A stretch of DNA of 38,671 nucleotides from Actinomycetes bacterium (GTDB taxonomy: Bacteria > Actinomycetota > Acidimicrobiia > Acidimicrobiales > RAAP-2). Below the pieces are notes generated by a model that saw nothing but the letters and a program-made list of their open reading frames with translations, searched no databases and had not been told where the DNA came from. The translations under genes were made by a program, and so were the position numbers. This document shows, in pieces, positions 4,857 through 15,836 of the stretch. The stretch spans positions 1 through 38,671 of the forward strand of contig JAJZEN010000048.1 in assembly GCA_021828545.1 (NCBI GenBank). Direction: 5' to 3'. Each line of letters opens with the position of its first letter. The first letter of the stretch is position 1.

Positions 4857-4928
<72 letters not shown>

Positions 4929-5596
4929 CCGACGAATTTCCTAGGAAAGTCCAACGTGTTAAAGAATTCTTTGGATCCATGTGAGCACTGGAAATCCGGC
5001 CACGACGATTGACGGTTCTTCGGATTCTGGCGGCTCGGTCGAACCGACCGGGACGCGTGCCGATCGTCCACCATCGAGGGAACATGTCGGACTCCTCGTG
5101 GGCCTTCGGGCAGCGAGGGTGCTCGCGGAGGGACTTACGGCCCGGATCAACCCGAACGACAAGGATTGCCATCTATCACCCCTGGGCGGTTGTGGGTTTG
5201 GACGGAGACAGTGGATGGAGGGTGACCTCGGAATCTCGTGCACGACCGACTCATCTGGAGGCGATACCGTTCCACGTCCGCTCTTGACGCGATAGGTGAA
5301 ATATTGTGGGTGCCCCCCTAAGATGCCCGCATCGTCGCGATCATGTTGGCGCAGAATCTGGGCGGCCGACTACGTCAGCGGGTTTTTTCCATCATCGAAT
5401 CGTCGACGACTCCCCCCGACGTCGAAGGTCATCTAAATTCGTCGCGACGAGATGCAAAGATTGCGCGCGCCGCGGCGTGTACGCTCGCTTACTGAATGGC
5501 GATCGGTACGACTCTGTAGCGCCGACGAGACGCCGCCCGGTTCCTCGAAATCGTCACCCGAACGGGAGCGATGACGTCTCGGTGCACCTTCGAGCG
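4929..5596. other. Non-coding stretch of about 670 bases after tRNA-Gly
   Basis: No convincing gene in any frame: the open frames here lack ribosome sites, conserved motifs and plausible composition. Visible structure is limited to palindromes just after the tRNA (listed separately) and, around 5365-5388, a weak stem GCCGAC/GTCAGC (one mismatch, 3-base loop) followed by GGG and six T residues. That could be a plus-strand intrinsic terminator, although no plus-strand gene ends nearby. It may be decayed DNA like the pseudogene region further right, but I recognise no remnant. Confidence 0.5.
4937..4979. repeat. Three consecutive perfect palindromes downstream of tRNA-Gly
   Basis: TTTCCTAGGAAA (4937-4948) and AAAGAATTCTTT (4961-4972) are perfect 12-base palindromes separated by 12 bases, followed directly by TGGATCCA (4972-4979). 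They start 8 bases after the tRNA. They could be hairpins that end or process the tRNA transcript, or protein-binding sites; the sequence alone does not decide. Confidence 0.5.
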
Positions 5597-6829
5597 TTAC
5601 TTCGCGATTACCCGCCACGAATGTCCGCCGTCGAGCGTCTCGATCGCTTCCGCCGCGGTGCCGTAGCCTCCCGCGAAGCCGAATCCGAATCCGAAAGTAG
5701 GCGACAGGAAAGTCAGCGAGATGATGTCCCCGTGTAACACCCGGATCCAATGGCGACCCCCATCGAAAGTCGCCGTCAATGACGTGGGCGCGCTCGAAGC
5801 GGCGGCGAAGAAGTGTGTGGCTGAGGGCGCTGCCAAGATCAACGCACTGTCGGCGTACGTTGCGCCGATCTGAGGACCCCAGTGGAAGGCCGCTCCACCA
5901 TTGGTCGAAATGCGCAGCCACGTTGACCCTACCTTCGCGCCCAGTGGTCCCCCGACGACCGGGCTCTGCCCGTACCCCCCTAACTGACACGCTACCGTCA
6001 GACGCGAGGGCGACGACGCCTCGGGGAACGCCATCGAGTACCCCACGGAGGCGCACGGGGCTGTCCACGGTACCCACTGACCTTTCGCGTTGAGCTCGGC
6101 ACTGCCCGTGACCCCGCGATCGTTGCCTTCGGCCAACCAACCATGTGCATCCGAAAGTGTCATCGCTCCATAGGGCTGACTGCCGCCCGCGGGGAGCGAT
6201 AGGGGTGCCACAGAAGCACGCGTCCAATGATCCATTCCGACGGGTGAGGAATCAACGACCGCATTAGTGTTCGATGCTTCGGCGCCCAGGACGTAGACCT
6301 TCGTCGCGGAGGATTCCAAGTCGAAGTACGAGCTCGCGCCCCCAAGACTGGGCGGTGTGGCGGCGCTCCAGGACGCTCCACCGTTGTGGGTCGACCAGAC
6401 GACGAGGTCCGAGATTCCGTTGGAGAAGCCCGGCGCCACGACCCTCCCGGTCATCGAACCCGAGATCCATCCATCGAACGGATTCGCGAACCGAACGGAA
6501 AGTCCGCCTACCGCGGCCGGGGACGCGTATCCCATTCTGATCTGGAAATTTGCATTCGAGCGCAGTCGCGCGGGGAGCGGCACTCGCGCCCAACTCGTTC
6601 CGCCGTTCGTCGTGTGGTCGAGGAGGAGACAACGCGAGGTCAGTCCGCAGGGGCCCGTTCCCAGTATCCATCCGTCCGCCGTGGAGGAGAAATCATCGGA
6701 GAGTACACCCACCTGCAGCGGACGTGCACGGAGCGTCAACGCCGATGTCGTCGCCGTCGTGACGGTCCCACTGAGGAGGCTCACGAATATCCCCACCACG
6801 ACAAGTAGCGCGACTCGGCGGTTGGCCAT
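5597..6829 (-). CDS. Secreted Asp-box (BNR-repeat) beta-propeller protein, 410 aa
   Basis: The N-terminus MANRRVALLVVVGIFVSLLSG followed by an Ala/Thr-rich stretch is a probable signal peptide or anchor, so the product is likely exported. The body repeats the Asp-box signature (S/T-x-D/N-x-G-x-x-W) at least five times: TTNGGTSW, STHNGGASW, STNGGAAF, TFDGGRHW and TLDGGHSW. Each is preceded by phrases such as DGWILG or DGWISG. Asp boxes sit at beta-hairpin turns of propellers found in sialidases, Ycf48-like and other extracellular proteins. No sialidase arginine triad is evident, so an enzymatic role is not supported. No ribosome site precedes the ATG; a -10-like TACACT six bases upstream suggests a leaderless message. 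Confidence 0.85.
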   Translation of the reverse strand: MANRRVALLVVVGIFVSLLSGTVTTATTSALTLRARPLQVGVLSDDFSSTADGWILGTGPCGLTSRCLLLDHTTNGGTSWARVPLPARLRSNANFQIRMGYASPAAVGGLSVRFANPFDGWISGSMTGRVVAPGFSNGISDLVVWSTHNGGASWSAATPPSLGGASSYFDLESSATKVYVLGAEASNTNAVVDSSPVGMDHWTRASVAPLSLPAGGSQPYGAMTLSDAHGWLAEGNDRGVTGSAELNAKGQWVPWTAPCASVGYSMAFPEASSPSRLTVACQLGGYGQSPVVGGPLGAKVGSTWLRISTNGGAAFHWGPQIGATYADSALILAAPSATHFFAAASSAPTSLTATFDGGRHWIRVLHGDIISLTFLSPTFGFGFGFAGGYGTAAEAIETLDGGHSWRVIAK

Positions 6830-7130: not shown

Positions 7131-8198
7131 GTGCCGCACATTGATCGAGTGACCCTCCACTATCGTTGTGTCGCCTTGCGGCGACCATTCGTGACCACGG
7201 CGCGCACGGCCCGCGTTGTCGACGCGCTTATCGGGGAGGTGATGGACGGCGATGGGGGATCGCGTTGGGGCGGGACTTCGACGATTTGGCGCGTCGCCGA
7301 CGAGAGCACCGCGAGCGTTGCAGTGGCCGTCGGGGGTCCCCTTCGAGAGGCGAAGATCGGTCGAGGAGTGGATGATCCGGGCGCGCTCAGCGACGCACCC
7401 ACGTGCGACCATGGGAAACTCGTCGACACACACCTCTCTCGACTGCGCGATCCACGAACTCACCGCGCGCCACGACGGCGATCCCCTGTTTCATCCCTCG
7501 GTGGGCCCGACGAAGAAGTACGTACCGACATGACGTCGTGGGCGACGATCGTGGACGAAAGCCCTAACATCGTTCTCGCGACGGCCCTCGAGCACGCCAA
7601 GGAGGATTTCGCACCCCCAAGATCAAAGTGGGTGCGCGAGGCGACGACCGGACGACCATCATCAAGATTCGTGAGATTGTCGGACACAACATCCCACCAC
7701 GCGTCGACGTGTCAACACGAATCTTCACGACGCCGCGGTCGATATCGAATTGATCGAGCAGCGGGTGGAATGCGCCGACATCGAATAGTTCGCTTTTCTC
7801 ACCAACCACACCCCAACGCCGATCGTGGCTGACGAGGCCGTATGGACGCGCCGGTAATGACGCGAATTACTCCGACGACGCGCCGTGGAGATGGTCAACG
7901 TCAAACTGGCGACGAGCGGTGGTCTCCGTGAGGCCCTCGCGACGGCCCAGGTGGCGCGCGAGAACGAGGTTGACCTCGTCGTCGGTTACATGCCCACGAC
8001 TCCCGCCATCGCAGCCGCGCCGGCCCGGCCTCGGCGGCGGATGAGCGAGCGATCCGAATCGGCCCAGCGCCCGATCTCGATGGAGGCCTATGGCGGACGA
8101 ACAGTCCCGTCGAGGGCGGTCCGACCTACGACGTACAGCTCCTTCGCCTGTCCCCGGAGCCGGGCGCGGGGATCATCCGTCTCGTGGACGACGCCTGA
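7131..8198 (+). pseudogene. Decayed enolase-superfamily gene (dipeptide epimerase / muconate cycloisomerase-like)
   Basis: Family-like segments appear in the right order but in changing frames. From 7131: VPHIDRVTLHYRCVALRRPF and WRVADESTASV (frame 1). From 7411: MGNSSTHTSLDCAIHELTARHDG (frame 2). From 7515: EVRTDMT (frame 1). From 7622: IKVGARGDDRTTIIKIREIVG and RVDV (frame 3). From 7738: VDIELIEQRVECADIE, then FAFLTNHTPTPIVADEAVW, then MVNVKLATSGGLREAL (frame 2). From 8061: GPAPDLDGGLWRTNSPVEGG to a stop at 8196-8198 (frame 1). That is at least five frame changes plus in-frame stops TAG (7786-7788) and TAA (7855-7857). The KxK, RVD, EQ, ADE and NVK elements are the usual catalytic and metal sites of the superfamily. 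The original enzyme probably epimerised dipeptides or cycloisomerised an acid; it cannot be made now. Confidence 0.85.
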
Positions 8199-8287
8199 GA
8201 CTCGCGCCGATCGACGCAGCGAGTTCGAACTACCCGCTGAGCCGGGGGGACCTCCTGCCCACTCGAACGTCGCCGAGGCCCTCCTCA

Positions 8288-8308
8288 TATACTCCCTAGG
8301 GGTATAAT
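8288..8308 (+). promoter_or_regulatory. CsoR-type operator overlapping a consensus -10 box
   Basis: An imperfect 19-base inverted repeat, TATACTCCCTAGGGGTATA (8288-8306), has TATAC/GTATA arms and CC/GG inner pairs about a centre at 8297. It closely follows the A-T-flanked, C/G-cored layout of known CsoR sites. Its right arm runs into TATAAT (8303-8308), a perfect -10 hexamer, 21 bases before the csoR GTG start. No clear -35 is seen. Binding of apo-CsoR here would block RNA polymerase, giving autoregulation of the csoR-permease pair. Confidence 0.75.
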
Positions 8309-8329
8309 TATCATGAGAGGCGGACCGAG

Positions 8330-8620
8330 GTGAGCACGACTCGCGGCTACGACGACGCCAAGGTCAACGTCCTCGCACGCCTCAAGCGCATCGAAGGTCA
8401 GGTACGCGGTGTCACCAAGATGGTCGAGGACGACCGATACTGCATCGACGTCCTCCAGCAGATTTCCGCGGTGACGCGCGCGCTTCAGGGTGTGGCCCTG
8501 CACCTGCTCGACGAGCACATGGAGCACTGCGTCGTCGACGCGGTCACGATGGGAGGTGCCGAAAAGGACCTCAAACTCAAAGAGGCGTCCCGGGCGATCG
8601 CTCGACTGGTGAAGTCGTGA
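8330..8620 (+). CDS. csoR: CsoR/RcnR-family metal-sensing repressor, 96 aa
   Basis: All-helical DUF156 repressor with the motif order of Cu(I)-sensing CsoR. A Cys in DDRYCIDVLQQ is followed by His and Cys in LLDEHMEHCVV with H-x3-C spacing, the Cys-His-Cys ligand set. The C-terminal EKDLKLKEASRAIARL carries the conserved Glu and basic residues. The N-terminal helix LARLKRIEGQVRGVTKM is the family signature for DNA binding. Metal binding releases the operator. A matching palindrome overlaps the -10 box just upstream. Its TGA overlaps the GTG of the downstream permease, so the regulated target is almost certainly that permease. Cu(I) is the likely inducer; Ni, Co, or sulfur species are possible for other family members. 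Confidence 0.9.
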   Translation: MSTTRGYDDAKVNVLARLKRIEGQVRGVTKMVEDDRYCIDVLQQISAVTRALQGVALHLLDEHMEHCVVDAVTMGGAEKDLKLKEASRAIARLVKS

Positions 8621-10302
8621 CCGGGGTCGTCGCCATCGCGACGTCGCTCGTGGATCTGGGCCACGGTCTGCGCGAAGGATTCTTCATGTTCTGGGAGACC
8701 CTCTGGGCACTCGTGCTGGGCTTCACCCTCTCGGGCGTGGTGCAGGCCTTCGTCTCGAAGGAGCAAATGCGCGCGAAACTCGGAGATCATCGACCACGAG
8801 CGGTCGTGCGCGCCTCGTGGTACGGCATGGTGTCCTCGAGTTGCTCCTACGCCGCCTCGGCCATGGCGAAGTCACTCTTCGCCAAAGGCGCCGACTTCAC
8901 CTCCGCGATGATCTTCATGATCGCCTCCACCAATCTGGTCGTCGAACTCGGCATCGTGATGCTGATTCTGCTCGGGTGGCAATTCGCGGTGGCGGAGTTC
9001 GTGGGCGGACCCGTCATGATCGTCCTACTCGCGCTCAGCGGCGCGATGGTCTTCAGCGCGCCAGTGGTGCGTCGCGCCCTCGAACGGATTCGGGGCGAAA
9101 GTCACGACGCGAACTCGCCCGTGGCACCAGGTAACCCCGGTCACGGGAGTGCGCACGACCACACCGCCATGACCGGCGTAAGCGAAGAGCGACAAGTCGA
9201 ACTCGAAGCCCTCCCCCTCGCGGCGAAGTTCCGCTCGTCCGCCGCCTGGTCCGACGCATCAAGTTACGCCGTGGCCGACGCCACCATGCTGCGACGTGAG
9301 CTACTCATCGGCTACGTCATCGCTGGCTTTCTCGCGGTGCTCGTCCCCTCGCACGCGTGGAGCGACGTCTTCCTCCACGGCCATGGATTCTGGACGGACG
9401 TCGAGAACGCCGCGGTGGGGCCGCTCATCGCGGTCGTCAGTTGGGTCTGTTCGATCGGCAACGTTCCGCTCGCCGCCGCCTTGTGGTCCGGGGGCATCTC
9501 CTTTGGCGGAGTCATCGCCTTCATTTTCGCCGACCTCATCGCGATGCCGTTAATCCTGATCTATCGCAAACTCTACGGAGGGCAACTCACCCTTCGCCTC
9601 ATCGGCCTCTTCTACGTGATCATGGTGGTGGCGGGTCTGATCACCCAGCTGATCTTCGCGGGGCTCGGCGCGGTCCCCTCGCGGCGAATATTCCACGTTG
9701 CCGGCGCTCACTTCGAGTGGAACTACACCACCTATCTCAACCTCGTCTTCCTCGTCCTCGCCGGAGGCGTGTGGTGGATGGCGAAGAATCGACGACGCTT
9801 CGGTGGGGGCGTGGGGTACGCCATCGACCCGGTGTGTGGGATGCAGGTGCGCACCGGCGACGCACCCGCTCGAGTTCACCACGACGGTCACGTCGTGTAC
9901 TTCTGTTCCGACCACTGCCGCGAGAAGTTCGAGCGCGATCCCGCCCGCTTCGCCTCGGGCCCATCGCCGTCGGATACGACAATGACCACCAGTGGCGAAT
10001 CCGCGTCGAACATCCTCGACCCCGTGTGTGGCATGAACGTCGATCCGGCCACGGCGTCCGCTCATCGTCGCTACCGCGACCTCGACGTGTGGTTTTGTTC
10101 GACCAACTGCGCGGCGCGCTTCGACGCCGACCCCGAGCGATTTCTCGCGCCCGGCGCGATGCCCGAGGGCATGACCCCTTCACCCGTTGGTGTCAATCTC
10201 ACCCGGAAACCCCGTCCTCGCGCGACTCCGGCGTCTAATTCCTCCCGGCCCGATTCCCCTCAGCCTGAGCCCTCCGCGAGGGACACCCCGCCCGCCCAGT
10301 AG
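8617..10302 (+). CDS. DUF318/ArsP-like permease with two C-terminal YHS metal-binding domains, 561 aa
   Basis: The membrane part has two related halves. The first (about 25-150) contains WYGMVSSSCSYAASAMAKSLF with Cys76. The second (about 228-385) contains VVSWVCSIGNVPLAAALW with Cys278, like the paired Cys-containing helices of DUF318 permeases. Between them is a His/Met-containing loop (GHGSAHDHTAM, 175-185). The C-terminus holds two YHS domains: DPVCGM at 404-409 with YFCSDHC (Cys430, Cys434), and DPVCGM at 468-473 with WFCSTNC (Cys494, Cys498). YHS domains are found on copper and heavy-metal handling proteins. It probably exports a soft metal or metalloid across the inner membrane, with the tandem domains as metal receivers. 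The GTG start overlaps the csoR stop. A Pro/Ser-rich tail ends the protein. Confidence 0.88.
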   Translation: MTGVVAIATSLVDLGHGLREGFFMFWETLWALVLGFTLSGVVQAFVSKEQMRAKLGDHRPRAVVRASWYGMVSSSCSYAASAMAKSLFAKGADFTSAMIFMIASTNLVVELGIVMLILLGWQFAVAEFVGGPVMIVLLALSGAMVFSAPVVRRALERIRGESHDANSPVAPGNPGHGSAHDHTAMTGVSEERQVELEALPLAAKFRSSAAWSDASSYAVADATMLRRELLIGYVIAGFLAVLVPSHAWSDVFLHGHGFWTDVENAAVGPLIAVVSWVCSIGNVPLAAALWSGGISFGGVIAFIFADLIAMPLILIYRKLYGGQLTLRLIGLFYVIMVVAGLITQLIFAGLGAVPSRRIFHVAGAHFEWNYTTYLNLVFLVLAGGVWWMAKNRRRFGGGVGYAIDPVCGMQVRTGDAPARVHHDGHVVYFCSDHCREKFERDPARFASGPSPSDTTMTTSGESASNILDPVCGMNVDPATASAHRRYRDLDVWFCSTNCAARFDADPERFLAPGAMPEGMTPSPVGVNLTRKPRPRATPASNSSRPDSPQPEPSARDTPPAQ

Positions 10303-10323
10303 TCACGCCCAGCCAGAGCGTGA
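10303..10323 (+). terminator. Possible weak terminator after the permease gene
   Basis: TCACGC (10303-10308) pairs with GCGTGA (10318-10323) around a 9-base loop immediately after the permease stop codon. It is followed only by GCGCGTTT, so the T-tract is poor. Actinobacterial terminators often lack a long T run. Confidence 0.35.
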
Positions 10324-10419
10324 GCGCGTTTCACCGGTTTGATGAAGTCCGCCGGGTACGTTGTCGCCGAAAACGAGGAGAAACCCCGCGAAATCGACGG
10401 TCCTCAGGGTTTTCCCCTA

Positions 10420-10479
10420 TGGACGTCCGCGACATCCCTGCCTAGTATCAACCTCGTGTCCCGCCCGCCGCGACACGAG
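10420..10479 (+). promoter_or_regulatory. Predicted promoter and 5'-leader inverted repeat of the ABC exporter
   Basis: TGGACG (10420-10425, four of six matches to TTGACA) and TAGTAT (10443-10448) are 17 bases apart. Just downstream, CTCGTGTC (10453-10460) and GACACGAG (10472-10479) form a perfect 8-base inverted repeat with an 11-base G/C loop. Its right arm touches the GAGGGAAGGA ribosome site of the ATPase gene. It could be a repressor operator at the transcription start or a hairpin limiting ribosome access. Confidence 0.5.
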
Positions 10480-10490
10480 GGAAGGACGCG

Positions 10491-11465
10491 ATGACCAATA
10501 CGGTGACCACTTTGACGCCTGCAGTCACCGCCCAGAGCCCCTGGGCCGTGGAGACCCACGGTCTCACCAAGAAGTTCGGAGGACGTACCGCGGTCAACGG
10601 TGTCGACCTCTTAGTACCGCGCGGCTGCGCCTTCGGTTACCTCGGACCCAACGGCGCGGGTAAGACCACTTTGATCCGCGTCTTGCTCGGGCTCACCCAC
10701 GCCGACGCGGGAACTATGCGACTTCTCGGCCACGATGTTCCCGCCCAACGTGACATTGCGTTGGCGCGAGTGGGCGCCATCGTCGACGAGCCACGATTCC
10801 ACCAGCACCTCACGGGCCGTCAAAACCTGGAGATTCTCGCCGCCGCCCGAGAACCCGCGGCGACGCAGAGGATCGACGGCGCACTTGATCGCGTAGGCAT
10901 CTTGCACCGCGACAACGACAGGGTCTCGAAGTATTCCATGGGGATGCGCCAACGCCTGGGCGTCGCCGCGTGTCTGTTGGGCGACCCGCATCTCCTGATC
11001 CTCGACGAGCCCATGAACGGCCTGGATCCCGGTGGCATGGTCGACATGCGCGAGATGATCACCTCCTTGGTCGCCGAGGGTCGAACAGTCGTTCTCTCGT
11101 CGCACCTCCTCGACGAGATCGAACGTACGTGCGACGCGGTCGCCATCGTCGATCAAGGGAGAATCATCCGCCAGGGTCCCATCACCGAACTCTTGGCGGG
11201 CTCCTCGCTCGAGGTCGAGATCGAATGCGATGCGCCCGAGCGAGCCCTCTTTCTGCTCACGTCGGGACCTCTCGGCGCCAAAGCGAGTGTCATCGACGAC
11301 CACCTTCTGGTCACGCTGGCGGCGGACACTTCGCGCGACGCGGTCGCCGAGATCAACCGGATCCTCGTCACCGGCGACGTGGCGGTGTACCGCCTCCAGG
11401 AGAATCACGCGTCGCTCGAGAAGTGGTTCCTCGAGGTCACCAGTCGATTAGGGGACCAACAATGA
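10491..11465 (+). CDS. ABC transporter ATP-binding protein (BcrA/DrrA-like exporter type), 324 aa
   Basis: Cytoplasmic ATPase of a two-gene exporter. Visible elements are Walker A GPNGAGKTT (52-60), the signature KYSMGMRQRLG (148-157 region, degenerate as in this subfamily), Walker B LLILDEPMNGLD (168-179), and the switch His205 in VLSSHLLDE. A roughly 100-residue C-terminal extension (EVEIECDAPERALFLL onward) is typical of the multidrug/bacitracin/daunorubicin ATPases. The ATG has a strong GGAAGGA ribosome site. Its TGA overlaps the ATG of the permease in an ATGA junction, so the two are co-translated. The exported substrate is unknown. It has its own probable promoter and is separate from the csoR unit. 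Confidence 0.92.
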   Translation: MTNTVTTLTPAVTAQSPWAVETHGLTKKFGGRTAVNGVDLLVPRGCAFGYLGPNGAGKTTLIRVLLGLTHADAGTMRLLGHDVPAQRDIALARVGAIVDEPRFHQHLTGRQNLEILAAAREPAATQRIDGALDRVGILHRDNDRVSKYSMGMRQRLGVAACLLGDPHLLILDEPMNGLDPGGMVDMREMITSLVAEGRTVVLSSHLLDEIERTCDAVAIVDQGRIIRQGPITELLAGSSLEVEIECDAPERALFLLTSGPLGAKASVIDDHLLVTLAADTSRDAVAEINRILVTGDVAVYRLQENHASLEKWFLEVTSRLGDQQ

Positions 11466-12616
11466 CCTCATCTCCCATTCCCATAACGCCGGAGAACTCG
11501 TCGGCACGCGTACTCAGCGAGTTTCCGGTTGACCATCGCGGGAGCCCGGTCCCGACCCTCGCAATGATCCGAACACGCGTCATGGAACTTCGCAAACGCC
11601 GCGGGCTGACGATTGCCCTCGTGGTCGTCAACATCGGGATTCCCGCGATCTTCTTGGCCGTACGCCTGATCATTCACGTGGTCGACCCCAAGTCCTACGG
11701 ACCCGCGGGGGGGTACGGGATCTTCACCAATTTGGTCACCGGGGTCATGTTCATCTTTGGGTTCATCGTGGCGGCGACGCTGGGCTGCACCGCTGGCTCG
11801 GTCGACCTCTCCGAAGGCGTCTTTCGCCACCTGGTCGTGACGGGGCGTTCACGACTGGCCCTCTACTTCGCGCGCATTCCCGCCGGTCTGACCATCCTGG
11901 TGCCCATCGTCGCCGTCGGCTTCGCCACCGTGTGCGCGGTGTGCGTCTTGGCCGCGCCCACCCAACTCCACTTCGACGGTGCGGTCGTGCCCCAGGGTCT
12001 CTCCGAAGGTGGACTCGTCAGCTGGGCCAAGGCCAACCCCCAAGAGGTGATCTGCAACTTCAACTACCGGGGTCCGATCAACGTCCCCGTGCGCTGCGGC
12101 CCCAATGGCCCGGTCGCCATCAATCCCCAGACCGGACCGCCCGCCTCGACCGCGGTCTCCACCTCGCAACTCGCGACGCTCGCCGCCGCCATCGCCGTGC
12201 AGGACTACTCGAGCTATCACCAGACCTTCCTGAAGCCCCCCTACTCGTTGATGGCCCAATCGCTCCTCTGGCTCGAACTCGAAACCGCCATCGGTTTCAT
12301 CGTCGGACTGGGTCTGGCCTCCTTGATGGGCCAGCGCACGGTGCCGGTCGTGTTGATGATCATCCTCGAGATTGTCCTCACCCCACTCTTCGCGACGGTG
12401 AACATTCCCCACCTGATCGATCTGCAACGCGCGATCGTCGGTGTCGCGACCGTGCACGTCGAACCCCTCGGGTTGCCGTCGGCTTTTTCGGGCCACGGTA
12501 ATGGTGGTCCGACTCTCGTCCCCGAATCAACCAGCACCGCCATCGTCGTGATTGTCGGCTGGCTCGTGGTGTGGACCGGTTTGGGCGCGTGGCGAATGGC
12601 GCGACGAGACGTGTAG
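11462..12616 (+). CDS. ABC transporter permease of the exporter, 384 aa
   Basis: Partner membrane subunit of the upstream ATPase. I start it at the ATG (11462) inside the ATGA overlap, although the frame is open further upstream. After a hydrophilic N-terminus come hydrophobic segments at GLTIALVVVNIGIPAIFLAVRL, GIFTNLVTGVMFIFGFIVAATLG and LTILVPIVAVGFATVCAVCVL. A long external loop follows with two Cys (EVICNFNY and PVRCGPNG). The last helices lie around GFIVGLGLASLMG, VPVVLMIILEIVLTPLF and IVVIVGWLVVWTGLGAW. Six or so helices and this size suit ABC-2-like exporters. The paired cysteines in the loop could form a disulfide. Substrate unknown. Confidence 0.85.
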   Translation: MTSSPIPITPENSSARVLSEFPVDHRGSPVPTLAMIRTRVMELRKRRGLTIALVVVNIGIPAIFLAVRLIIHVVDPKSYGPAGGYGIFTNLVTGVMFIFGFIVAATLGCTAGSVDLSEGVFRHLVVTGRSRLALYFARIPAGLTILVPIVAVGFATVCAVCVLAAPTQLHFDGAVVPQGLSEGGLVSWAKANPQEVICNFNYRGPINVPVRCGPNGPVAINPQTGPPASTAVSTSQLATLAAAIAVQDYSSYHQTFLKPPYSLMAQSLLWLELETAIGFIVGLGLASLMGQRTVPVVLMIILEIVLTPLFATVNIPHLIDLQRAIVGVATVHVEPLGLPSAFSGHGNGGPTLVPESTSTAIVVIVGWLVVWTGLGAWRMARRDV

Positions 12617-12636: not shown

Positions 12637-12656
12637 GCCACGCGATCTAGCGTGGC
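12637..12656. terminator. Hairpin between convergent ABC permease and prpB genes
   Basis: GCCACGC (12637-12643) and GCGTGGC (12650-12656) form a perfect 7-pair stem with loop GATCTA. It lies 20 bases after the permease stop on the plus strand and overlaps the TAG stop of the lyase gene on the minus strand. Its position between convergent genes suits a bidirectional terminator. No T-tract follows on either side. Confidence 0.45.
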
Positions 12657-13546
12657 ACGTCGAAGGTGAAGACGTCCGCGTCGTAGGCCTGGTAGGCCTG
12701 GTAGTCGAGCAGGTCGTAGAGGGCCACGCGATGTTGCATCTCGCCCAGCACCGACGTGAGATGGCCCTCGTCGCGCAGGGTGTCGAGTGCTCGCGAGGCC
12801 GCCCCCATCGCCACGCGCAGCAGTGAGACCGGGAAGATGACGATGTTGACGCCCACGTCAGCGAGCTGAGTAGTGGTGAAGAGTTCGCTCTTACCGAATT
12901 CGGTCATGTTGGCCAAGATGGGCACGTCGACCGCGGCGCGCACCGCGGCGAACTCGCTCAGGCTCAGCATCGCCTCGGGGAAGAGGGCGTCCGCCCCGGC
13001 GTCGACCAACGACTTCGCGCGATCGATGGCGGCGTCCAGTCCCGCGAGCGCGCGAAGATCGGTGCGGGCCATGATCAACAGATTCTCATCACGACGCGCC
13101 CGGACCGCCGCGCGGATCCGCTGGGTCGCGGTGGCGTCGTCGACCACTTGCTTACCGTCGAGGTGGCCGCAACGCTTCGGGTTGACTTGATCCTCGATGT
13201 GTAGTCCAGCCACACCGGCGTCCTCGAGGGTCTGAACGGTGCGTGCGACGTTCATCGGTTCGCCGAATCCGGTATCGGCGTCCACGAGGGTGGGCAGACT
13301 CGTCACCCGCGATATCTGTCCACTGCGTGTCGCCACTTCGGTGAGGGTCGTCAGTCCAATGTCGGGCAATCCCAAATCGGCGGCCACGACGGCACCAGAG
13401 ACGTAGACGCCGTCGAAACCCTTGGTCTCGATCAACTTGGCCGACAGGGGGTTGAACGCGCCCGGCAGTAACTGGAGTTCGCCCGTCGCCAGACGCGCAC
13501 GAAACGCTCGACGTTTCTCACTCGCGCTCTCGGTGGCGTAGAGCAT
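12647..13546 (-). CDS. prpB: Isocitrate lyase/PEP-mutase family lyase, methylisocitrate-lyase-like (PrpB), 299 aa
   Basis: Mg-dependent TIM-barrel lyase. The active-site loop KRCGH (residues 124-128, catalytic Cys126), the metal-site motif DADTGFG (89-95) and GLHIEDQVNPK (114-124, Glu118) are those of 2-methylisocitrate lyase. That enzyme splits 2-methylisocitrate to pyruvate and succinate. Close relatives cleave 2,3-dimethylmalate or oxaloacetate, so the substrate here is inference. ATG at 13546 overlaps the stop of the PrpD gene by one base (TGATG), so the two are coupled. No methylcitrate synthase (prpC) lies in the window, which weakens a simple methylcitrate-cycle reading. The hairpin at its 3' end may terminate the iclR-prpD-prpB transcript. 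Confidence 0.85.
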   Translation of the reverse strand: MLYATESASEKRRAFRARLATGELQLLPGAFNPLSAKLIETKGFDGVYVSGAVVAADLGLPDIGLTTLTEVATRSGQISRVTSLPTLVDADTGFGEPMNVARTVQTLEDAGVAGLHIEDQVNPKRCGHLDGKQVVDDATATQRIRAAVRARRDENLLIMARTDLRALAGLDAAIDRAKSLVDAGADALFPEAMLSLSEFAAVRAAVDVPILANMTEFGKSELFTTTQLADVGVNIVIFPVSLLRVAMGAASRALDTLRDEGHLTSVLGEMQHRVALYDLLDYQAYQAYDADVFTFDVPR

Positions 13547-15072
13547 CAGATCAGCCCCTCCGGCTCGACCACGGACTCGAGCACGCCCTCGCGGGCGCAG
13601 AAGCCGAGGTGGCCGAATTGGTCGGGCGACAGTGTGGCGAGGGACTGAGCGACGTCGAGGAAGCGTTCTATCTCGACGTTCTCGACCACCGGGGTCGCGA
13701 GGGCCCGGAACTTGGCCACGTAGTTCTCCCGAGCGAAGGGTCGCGCCCCGTTCGGGTGCGCGTCGGGTACCTCGATCGAGTCGACGAACGTCGTTCCGTC
13801 ATTGAGCACGACCTCCACCCAACCGCCAAAGGCCTTGTCGGCGGGGTCGGGGGCCAAGTAGCGCTGGCTCCACACGGGGTCCTCGACCGTGCTGATCTTG
13901 CGCCAGAGGCGGAGCGTGTCGGGTCGGCGTGCGCGCTCGGACGAATACGAGTCCTCGTGGTGCCAGCGACCGTCTTGGAGGGCGACGGCGAAGATGTAGG
14001 GCAAGGAATGATCCAGTGTCTCGCGCGTGGCGGAGGGCTCGTACTTCTGGGGATCGTTCGCTCCAGAACCGATGACGAAGTGAGTGTGGTAGGACGAGTG
14101 GATCACGATGCGGTCAATCAACAGCCCGTCGATGAACTCGGGGTGCTCGCGGTGGAGTCGGCGAGCCAGATCGATCCACGCCTGGGCCTGATACTCCGCC
14201 GAGTGCTCCTTGGTGAAACTATCGAGGATCGATCGCTTGGCTTCGCCGGGACCGGGCAGCGCCACCGTGTAGCGAGCGTCGGGGCCGCCCAGCAACCACG
14301 CGATCACGCCGTCCTCCCCCTCGTAGATGGGCGTCGGCGACGTCTGAGCGCGCATCGCGCGGTCCACCGCCTCGATCGCCGCCTTGCCGGCGAAGGCGGG
14401 GGCGTACGCCTTCCAGGTAGAGATCTCCCCCTTGCGCGACTGGCGCGTCGCCGTGGTGGTGTGCAGGGACTGACCCACGGCTTGGTAGATGGTCGCGGGA
14501 TCGAGACCGAGCAGAGTGCCCAGGCCCGCCGCGACGCTCGGACCAAGGTGCGCCACGTGATCGATCTTGTGCTCGTGCAGGGAGATCGAGCGAACGAGGG
14601 AGATCTGGATCTCGTAGCCCGTGGCGATCGCCCGCACCAGGTCACGACCATTGAGCCCCCGGACGTCGGCCACGTGCTGGGCCACCGCCACTAGCGGCGG
14701 AATGTTGTCGCCGGGGTGAGAATACTCCGCGGCCAAGAACGTGTCGTGGAAATCCAACTCACGCACCGCCACGCCGTTGGCCCACGCCGCCCACTCGGGC
14801 GAGACCCGCAACTCCGGCGACGCGCCCACCACCGTCGCGCCGGGCGTGAGGAGGTGTCGGCGCGCCTGGGCGCGCGCCGCCACGACGGGAGCGCGAGTCA
14901 GCGACGCGGCGGCGACCGACGCGTTGTCGATCACTCGATTGATGACCATGTCAATCACGTCCTCGCTCACGTCGACGGGGTCGGCGGCGACCCGGGCGAT
15001 CTTCCAGGCGAGTTGCTCCTCGCGAGGAAGTTCTTCGTCACTGCGGTGGACTCGGACCTCGTGCTCAATCAT
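13546..15072 (-). CDS. prpD: MmgE/PrpD-family dehydratase (2-methylcitrate dehydratase-like), 508 aa
   Basis: Full-length MmgE/PrpD protein. Recognisable regions are [29 protein letters not shown] (about 115-143), with the conserved 'D.hD' and 'H.gD' clusters, [10 protein letters not shown], and [21 protein letters not shown]-terminal domain carries [18 protein letters not shown] and PFAREN. The family dehydrates 2-methylcitrate, and members also act on related tricarboxylates and as cis-aconitate decarboxylase. I chose the ATG at 15072 (AAGAGG ribosome site, ATGA overlap with the IclR stop) over an upstream start in the same frame that falls inside the iclR gene. It is coupled to the PrpB-like lyase downstream. 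Substrate is uncertain because prpC is absent. Confidence 0.85.
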
Positions 15073-15836
15073 GGCAACCTCTTGGAGATAGCGGTACTGG
15101 CACGTTTGAGTTCGACCACGCACCACTCGGCCTTGCTCTCATCGAGGTCCGCGGCACGCCCCGACACTTGTAGCGACGCCACGACCTCACCCTCGCGGCT
15201 CACCACCGGCACGGCCACCGACGCGGACCCGAGTTCTCGCTCCGAAACGCTGTAGACGTACCCTTGTTGGCGGATCGCCTCGAGCGTCTTGACGAATTTT
15301 GGCCGGGTGACGATGTCGCCGCTGGCCAATCGAAATTCGGGGAGGTCCTTCGTGAGCTCCTTGATGTCCTCTCTGGTCAACGCCGCCGCCAAGACGCGCG
15401 CACCGCCCAAATGAAGGGGCGTGAGTTCACCCAGGGGCAAGAGGTAACGCGCCGGCTCGTTGCCTTCGACGCGCAGGATCATCACCCGAGCCATGTCCAC
15501 TCGCACCGACAGGGCCGACATGAACCCACTCGCCCCGGCGAGCTCTTGGAGGACCGGCAAGGTGATTTGGCTAAGGGAATTGGTCATGTGAAAGGCGAAA
15601 GCATTGATCATGGACGTCACGCCCACCGTGTAGCCGTAGCGCTCCTGACTCACGTAACCGTAGTGCTGCATGACGCTCAAGATGCGCTGCGTGGTGGCCA
15701 GGTGAATACCCGACTCAATGGAGATGTCGGTCAAGCGCATGGGGACCCGACTACGCCGCAGGATGTCGAGAATCTCGAATGATCGCTCCAGCGAACGCAT
15801 CGACGTCGTATTGGCGATATCCTTTACCGTCGCCAT
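15069..15836 (-). CDS. IclR-family transcriptional regulator, 255 aa
   Basis: N-terminal winged helix-turn-helix: [25 protein letters not shown] then [19 protein letters not shown] (about residues 15-62). A C-terminal IclR effector domain follows ([60 protein letters not shown]). IclR proteins sense small organic acids and control the adjacent catabolic genes. It is first in a unit with the PrpD-like and PrpB-like genes, joined by an ATGA overlap, so it is probably co-expressed with its own targets. It may also act on the importer/CoA-transferase unit upstream. ATG at 15836 has a GAGG ribosome site. Confidence 0.92.

Follow-up and report, generated by a model that had tools for sequence, protein, structure and literature searches.

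Among the described systems that come closest to the locus reported here is the permease SO_0444 of Shewanella oneidensis, whose mutant is impaired under copper and zinc stress and whose operon includes a ZntR-like regulator (PMC3219624); a relative from Nitratiruptor is induced by cadmium and copper (PMC10092412). The repressor CsoR of S. lividans acts at sites of the TAC-N9-GTA type (type 2 operators), e.g. TACCCCCTAGGGGTA at copZA1 (PMC3902906, Table 1). YHS domains have also been connected with copper: one is required for the copper activation of an adenylyl cyclase of M. phlei (PMC4626032), and a tandem YHS pair is found at the N-terminus of some rhizobial Cu-ATPases (PMC5552934). Furthermore, the Halovivax ruber permease AGB15007.1 is included in the YHS alignment of PMC4626032, so that a permease-YHS fusion was visible in print by 2015. 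For these papers, as for PMC4531530 and PMC7176098 below, all statements refer to the accessible portions of their text.

The window analysed here, a stretch of 38,671 nucleotides from an actinobacterial genome assembly, encodes a Cu(I)-type copper-sensing repressor (csoR, 8330-8620, + strand, GTG start, 96 aa) and, directly after it, a permease fused to two YHS domains (8617-10302, + strand, GTG start, 561 aa). The reading frames overlap by four bases (GTGA, 8617-8620), which bears out the coupling of the permease gene to csoR proposed in the first-pass annotation. Its description of the gene products also holds: the permease is of the DUF318/ArsP type according to Pfam (ArsP_1) and has two YHS stretches at its C-terminus, the His/Met loop is present (four His and one Met in residues 146-207), and CsoR carries the intact YC...HxxxC ligand set expected of the Cu(I) type, namely Y37-C38, H63 and C67, in the Y-C...H-x3-C arrangement given in PMC4531530. 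The CsoR assignment rests on PF02583 (E 1.2e-29; 102.9 bits vs a cut-off of 22.8), and the best match among PDB entries is S. lividans CsoR (4adz, E 3.7e-29); the RicR model NF052430 scores 136.8 bits, below its cut-off of 175. A relaxed YC...HxxxC pattern was found in 56 of the 57 CsoRs of related loci, and a stricter ligand pattern in 42/57. Another CsoR-family gene is present elsewhere in the genome to which the window belongs.

Several other features flank the two genes. The ORF immediately 5' of csoR (7885-8307) weakly resembles the C-terminal domain of enolase (PF13378, below cut-off at E 9e-4) and is perhaps a gene remnant. On the same strand, 188 bases 3' of the permease, an ABC transporter ATPase and its membrane partner are encoded (10491-12616), a pair not obviously related to metals; the minus strand then carries PEP mutase/isocitrate-lyase-type and MmgE/PrpD genes (12647-15126), which presumably resemble those of the methylcitrate pathway. 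Further upstream lie a tRNA-Gly (tcc) at 4858-4930 and a gene for a 410-aa protein with weak Ycf48-like/BNR repeats (5597-6829; PF14870, E 5e-4, below cut-off).

A putative CsoR operator, TACTCCCTAGGGGTA, is located at 8290-8304 (+ strand); it matches the TAC-N9-GTA type exactly, ends 25 bases 5' of the csoR start and overlaps a TATAAT at 8303-8308. It is the single match within the window when up to one mismatch is allowed, with 0.09 expected. Our scan of 8100-10560 returned no conserved sigma-70 promoter. In related loci the operator pattern occurs upstream in 22/56 (1.8 kb scanned; 0.18 expected from block-shuffled sequence) and downstream in 0/56. It was not found in the 1.8 kb scan upstream of the other 34, three of which had less than 100 bases of upstream sequence, and a narrower scan of 150 bases upstream returned it for 9/57 loci. 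Terminator-like sites at 9478-9897 fall inside the permease gene and are in little excess (3 vs 1.3 in shuffled sequences).

The core of the permease comprises residues 8-358 (8638-9690, + strand), as delimited by Pfam, invariant residues, an AlphaFold model and fold comparison; ArsP_1 (PF03773) itself spans residues 24-344 (E 7.4e-63; 212.9 bits vs a cut-off of 32.3). An alignment of 58 sequences reveals the invariant motifs SSCSY (74-78), STN (104-106) and CSIGNVP (278-284), the latter preceded by V277, together with four invariant methionines (M24, M134, M224 and M336). The AlphaFold model of the core (8617-9804; pLDDT 88.9, pTM 0.87; full-length protein 81.7 and 0.75) consists of two similar, pseudo-symmetric halves containing broken helices, with C76 and C278 at break points. 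When this model was compared with known structures using VIA-align, the top row was ArsB (10tp, Z 14.7, 293 residues, 4.3 A, ~9% identity), and the rows down to Z 8.0, 34 in all, comprised ArsB, INDY-type, TRAP, AbgT-type, CNT and similar carriers, the next row dropping to Z 3.9; helical models can, however, reach Z 13 by chance in such comparisons. Foldseek alone gave 0 matches for the permease models at E 0.001 (the MFS rows listed are meaningless), and a profile of the 58 sequences gave 0 matches to PDB sequences at E 0.1, so that homology to ArsB or INDY is unsupported by sequence. Judged from the model, the permease is likely an elevator-type carrier. A sequence study has placed ArsP in the TOG superfamily (PMC7176098). 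This placement and a fold resembling ArsB/INDY cannot both be correct, and the predicted core fold does not support the TOG assignment.

The two YHS domains (PF04945, two stretches, 72.1 bits vs a cut-off of 30.3) cover residues 402-448 (9820-9960, + strand; ligands D404, C407, C430 and C434) and 466-512 (10012-10152, + strand; ligands D468, C471, C494 and C498). All four ligands of the first domain are invariant across the 58 sequences, the cysteines of the second are conserved at 0.92, 1.0 and 1.0 among the sequences possessing it, and the pattern of one Asp and three Cys is kept in 118/118 YHS domains of complete homologues. The modelled YHS resembles that of the toluene/o-xylene monooxygenase hydroxylase (3rnb, Z 6.5); a search of PDB sequences with the permease gave only weak L24e matches, to YHS. 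Between the halves of the core lies the His-rich loop (residues 160-190, 9094-9186, + strand; GESHDANSPVAPGNPGHGSAHDHTAMTGVSE), in which, among sequences having the respective position, H180 is conserved in 78% and H182 in 85%; its middle part (residues 173-189) is modelled with low confidence. On account of the positive charge at the flanking helix ends, both the loop and the YHS domains probably face the cytoplasm.

The genome survey of this fusion proposed in the first-pass annotation has now been carried out and reveals an arrangement that recurs beyond chance: 96 stretches in genome_contigs encode relatives of the permease, and 80 loci were kept. The records holding them are nearly all actinobacterial MAGs. 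A csoR gene stands directly upstream of the permease in 56/80 loci, and in 36 of these 56 the spacing is exactly -4. Eight incomplete or misread loci were dropped from the count of YHS domains; among the remaining 73 complete homologues (72 loci plus the window's copy) we found one domain in 34, two in 34, three in four and four in one. The set leans towards YHS-bearing members, since the query held YHS domains and one of the six search peptides lay in YHS2. In three relatives from the window's own family (L086, L087 and L088, from genomes G074, G110 and G022) the permease has two or three YHS domains and no csoR was found adjoining, i.e. the regulation of the permease differs among close relatives of the window. 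For the loci of the third order described below, a csoR beside the permease was not found by BLAST.

As to further operon partners, a gene for a SHOCT membrane protein precedes csoR in 19/80 loci and a cupredoxin-like gene in 17/80. The latter call lies below the Pfam cut-offs (SoxE 18.7 vs 21 bits, Copper-bind 18.5 vs 21.2) but is consistent with the way Cys, His and Met are spaced at the C-terminus and with weak hits among blue copper proteins (E 0.08); no such gene lies upstream in the window, and a single search of the window's genome did not find one. Of 25 plasmid records listed, six were inspected: copper genes adjoin the permease in Mycolicibacterium aubagnense and Paraburkholderia fungorum, an HMA-domain gene does so in one record, two have no copper-named neighbour and one is unannotated. 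Three permeases without YHS domains were also inspected; a His-containing tail is strong in L089 (G069), weaker in L099 (G078) and not seen in L098, as if a His-rich tail replaced YHS as the metal-binding tail in some permeases.

Our main observation is that the presence of the permease and that of the copper ATPase CopA are, in three orders, largely mutually exclusive. We scored CopA as a TIGR01511 match above the curated cut-off, and in the window's order a genome was counted as permease-positive if its match to the membrane core reached at least 43% identity (27 of 118 genomes). CopA is present in only 6/27 of these compared to 79/91 permease-negative genomes (P 5e-10). The same holds for a second order, to which the Thermoleophilia MAG behind L058 belongs (8/35 vs 72/94, P 3.7e-8; three fragments were left out or counted negative), and for a third, represented by the small-genome actinobacterium behind L069 (2/33 vs 107/118, P 1.2e-20), probably of the freshwater Nanopelagicales; the statistics for these two orders are raw genome counts unadjusted for relatedness and carry no completeness or family labels. 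Pooled over the three orders, CopA occurs in 16/95 permease-positive and 258/303 permease-negative genomes.

Under other scorings, the result in the window's order is 6/27 vs 83/91 (P 8e-12) if any P1B-like match with E<1e-60 is accepted, 8/30 vs 81/88 if three weak permeases are added, 5/27 vs 69/91 (P 1e-7) if only single-segment CopA matches with E<1e-118 are counted, and 4/21 vs 73/75 (P 3e-13) for genomes at least 90% complete at a looser CopA threshold. When a single genome was drawn from each of the 61 families, 1000 such draws gave a median P of 1e-5 and a 95th percentile of 3.6e-4. For 50 of the 80 related loci the genome of origin was searched as well, and CopA is above cut-off in 10/50; in the window's own genome (91% complete) the best TIGR01511 match (E 1.1e-33) lies below the cut-off. 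As a control we used the arsenite pump Acr3, which shows no link with the permease in the window's order (7/27 permease-positive vs 14/91 permease-negative genomes, P 0.25). Eight of the 91 permease-negative genomes of this order also lack a CopA-like ATPase; seven of them (G025, G026, G047, G062, G065, G076 and G112), some incomplete, have neither protein, and the eighth (G037) has a weak permease match.

Of the 21 permease-positive genomes of the window's order without CopA, 14 carry csoR no more than 330 bp from the permease; in the other seven, three of them from the window's own family, csoR does not adjoin it. Four families (f9, f16, f21 and f31) hold both states. In their six CopA-positive genomes csoR and copA are 87-917 bp apart; among the five permease-positive sisters, three have csoR by the permease and two (G069 and G073) have no CsoR match. 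CsoR thus changes its partner, copA or the permease, between sister genomes. HMA domains are absent in 17 of the 21 genomes, the window's own included, the other four having weak matches with E about 1e-6; among the genomes with CopA and without the permease they are absent in 5/83 and present in 78/83.

Both proteins occur together in 16 genomes, and in at least six of these (G021, G214, G256, G257, G263 and G352) their genes lie within 4 kb of each other, e.g. in the order csoR-copA-permease in G021 and copA-csoR-permease in G263 and G256. CopA accompanies 9/22 YHS-less vs 7/72 YHS-bearing permeases (P 0.0018; YHS presence was read from the matched range, and one fragment was left out). The YHS-bearing permease is hence the form that most often stands without CopA. 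The YHS-less permeases, which are found in CopA operons and coexist with CopA more often than the YHS-bearing ones do, mark the core as a protein of copper operons in general, and their occurrence there also indicates that YHS is not essential to the function of the core.

From these observations we conclude, with a probability of roughly three in four, that the locus is a copper-export operon without a P-type ATPase, in which a gradient-driven permease exports Cu(I) and the YHS domains hold or hand over copper. The first-pass annotation had suggested that, with a CsoR of the Cu(I) type in control, copper or other soft metals might be exported by a different route. The copper part of this proposal is well supported by the exclusion of CopA, the partner switch of CsoR, the cupredoxin-like and other copper-related neighbours, the metal ligands and the operator; the part on other soft metals is less favoured, on the single comparison with Acr3, in which no link was seen. 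Copper is thus well supported as the metal involved, and we infer that it is also the substrate.

An unlikely alternative is that copper is just the inducer, or one substrate among others, and that the cargo of the permease includes one or more other soft metals (Zn, Cd, Ag, Au, Hg) or a metal-thiol complex. The ArsP_1 family is broad, SO_0444 is needed under zinc as well as copper stress and is encoded with a ZntR-like regulator (PMC3219624), and the Nitratiruptor relative responds to cadmium as well as copper (PMC10092412). The exclusion of CopA in three orders nevertheless points to copper, as do the operator and the Cu(I)-type CsoR; several permease-positive genomes, moreover, still encode a further P1B-like ATPase that scores below the cut-off for CopA, and the missing link with Acr3 speaks against this alternative too. 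On the same control we rejected arsenic as the substrate. That the protein is an ordinary ArsP-type organoarsenical exporter would be suggested by its Pfam family; copper is indicated alike by the neighbouring genes, the regulator, the operator and the pattern of co-occurrence, and its NCBIfam matches, at low score, are to SO_0444 and SaoE, which makes this reading very improbable, and organoarsenical export was rejected on genomic context. Rather improbable, too, is that the exclusion of CopA merely reflects relatedness or habitat, the permease being present by coincidence in lineages that lost CopA. Permease-positive genomes do cluster in some families (f1 and f28), and the second and third orders are uncorrected for relatedness; however, the exclusion appears in three orders, survives the one-genome-per-family draws in the window's order, recurs as a contrast between sisters in f9, f16, f21 and f31, and has no counterpart for Acr3.

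The proposal that the YHS pair may act as a built-in chaperone fits the ligand pattern kept throughout the homologues and the absence of HMA from most genomes with the permease and without CopA; YHS-less relatives are found in csoR or copA operons as well. It is quite possible, if somewhat less so than not, that YHS is instead a sensor or gate that opens the permease on copper binding, or a copper buffer. The YHS domain of the M. phlei cyclase is a copper switch (PMC4626032), the number of YHS domains varies from 1 to 4, which suits buffering, the YHS-less relatives can carry His-rich tails (L089), and tandem YHS is also known from rhizobial Cu-ATPases (PMC5552934). The prevalence of YHS-bearing permeases in genomes without CopA and the frequent absence of HMA there, on the other hand, suit a chaperone-like role.

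Under the copper-export reading, rising cytosolic Cu(I) would bind CsoR, which would then leave the operator at 8290-8304, so that csoR and the coupled permease would be made together. The permease would export cytosolic Cu(I) as a secondary carrier driven by an ion gradient, probably by elevator-type movement; likely substrate ligands are Cys76 and Cys278, both invariant and situated at the helix breaks. On the cytoplasmic side the two YHS domains, each with one Asp and three Cys, and the His-rich loop may hold or hand over copper and would thereby serve the permease as CopZ and the HMA domains serve CopA. We infer the export direction, the energy source, the elevator movement and the role of YHS. 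By extension, we consider it reasonably probable that several large lineages of actinobacteria rely for their housekeeping export of Cu(I) on an elevator-type permease, driven by an ion gradient and with covalently attached YHS carriers, to which CsoR has been rewired from copZ-copA and which has cupredoxin-like partners in some of them.

To our knowledge, CopA is regarded as an almost universal copper exporter, and a genome that lacks it looks defenceless against copper. If our reading is correct, cells can detoxify copper without ATP-driven pumps or HMA chaperones, and genomes without CopA gain a candidate exporter together with its regulator and operator. A substrate is thereby predicted for a family annotated only as 'permease', and the YHS domains, whose role is mostly obscure, gain a testable job. 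Sister lineages that differ in having CopA or the permease, small-genome actinobacteria included, offer a natural experiment.

Compared with the described systems, the window's permease shares the ArsP_1 family with SO_0444 and may work like it, though it stands outside the corresponding NCBIfam family: it scores 73.2 bits with the SO_0444 model NF033936 (cut-off 300) and 61.4 bits with the SaoE model NF040736 (cut-off 325). SO_0444 is under ZntR-type control, and YHS is not mentioned in the accessible portions of its description; the window's permease, in contrast, is probably under CsoR control and has YHS domains. With csoR-copZ-copA operons the window shares CsoR, the TAC-N9-GTA operator and the combination of a cytosolic metal-binding module with a membrane exporter; those operons, however, use a P1B ATPase and HMA/CopZ, whereas here a permease and YHS domains are fused in one chain. 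The predicted core resembles ArsB and the INDY/TRAP carriers in its ion-transporter fold and belongs to a different Pfam family. As in the YHS/TRASH Cu-ATPases and the YHS adenylyl cyclase of M. phlei, YHS is found near copper-related proteins; unlike the present analysis, the accessible portions of PMC4626032 and PMC5552934 do not discuss the coupling to csoR, the operon or the replacement of CopA. Our literature search, which covered mainly open-access papers, found no published account of these three points. Taken together, the ArsP_1 family, CsoR, YHS, SO_0444 as a Cu/Zn exporter and the presence of such a permease in a YHS alignment were already known, whereas the coupling to csoR and the operon appear to be new, as does, most importantly, the systematic replacement of CopA.
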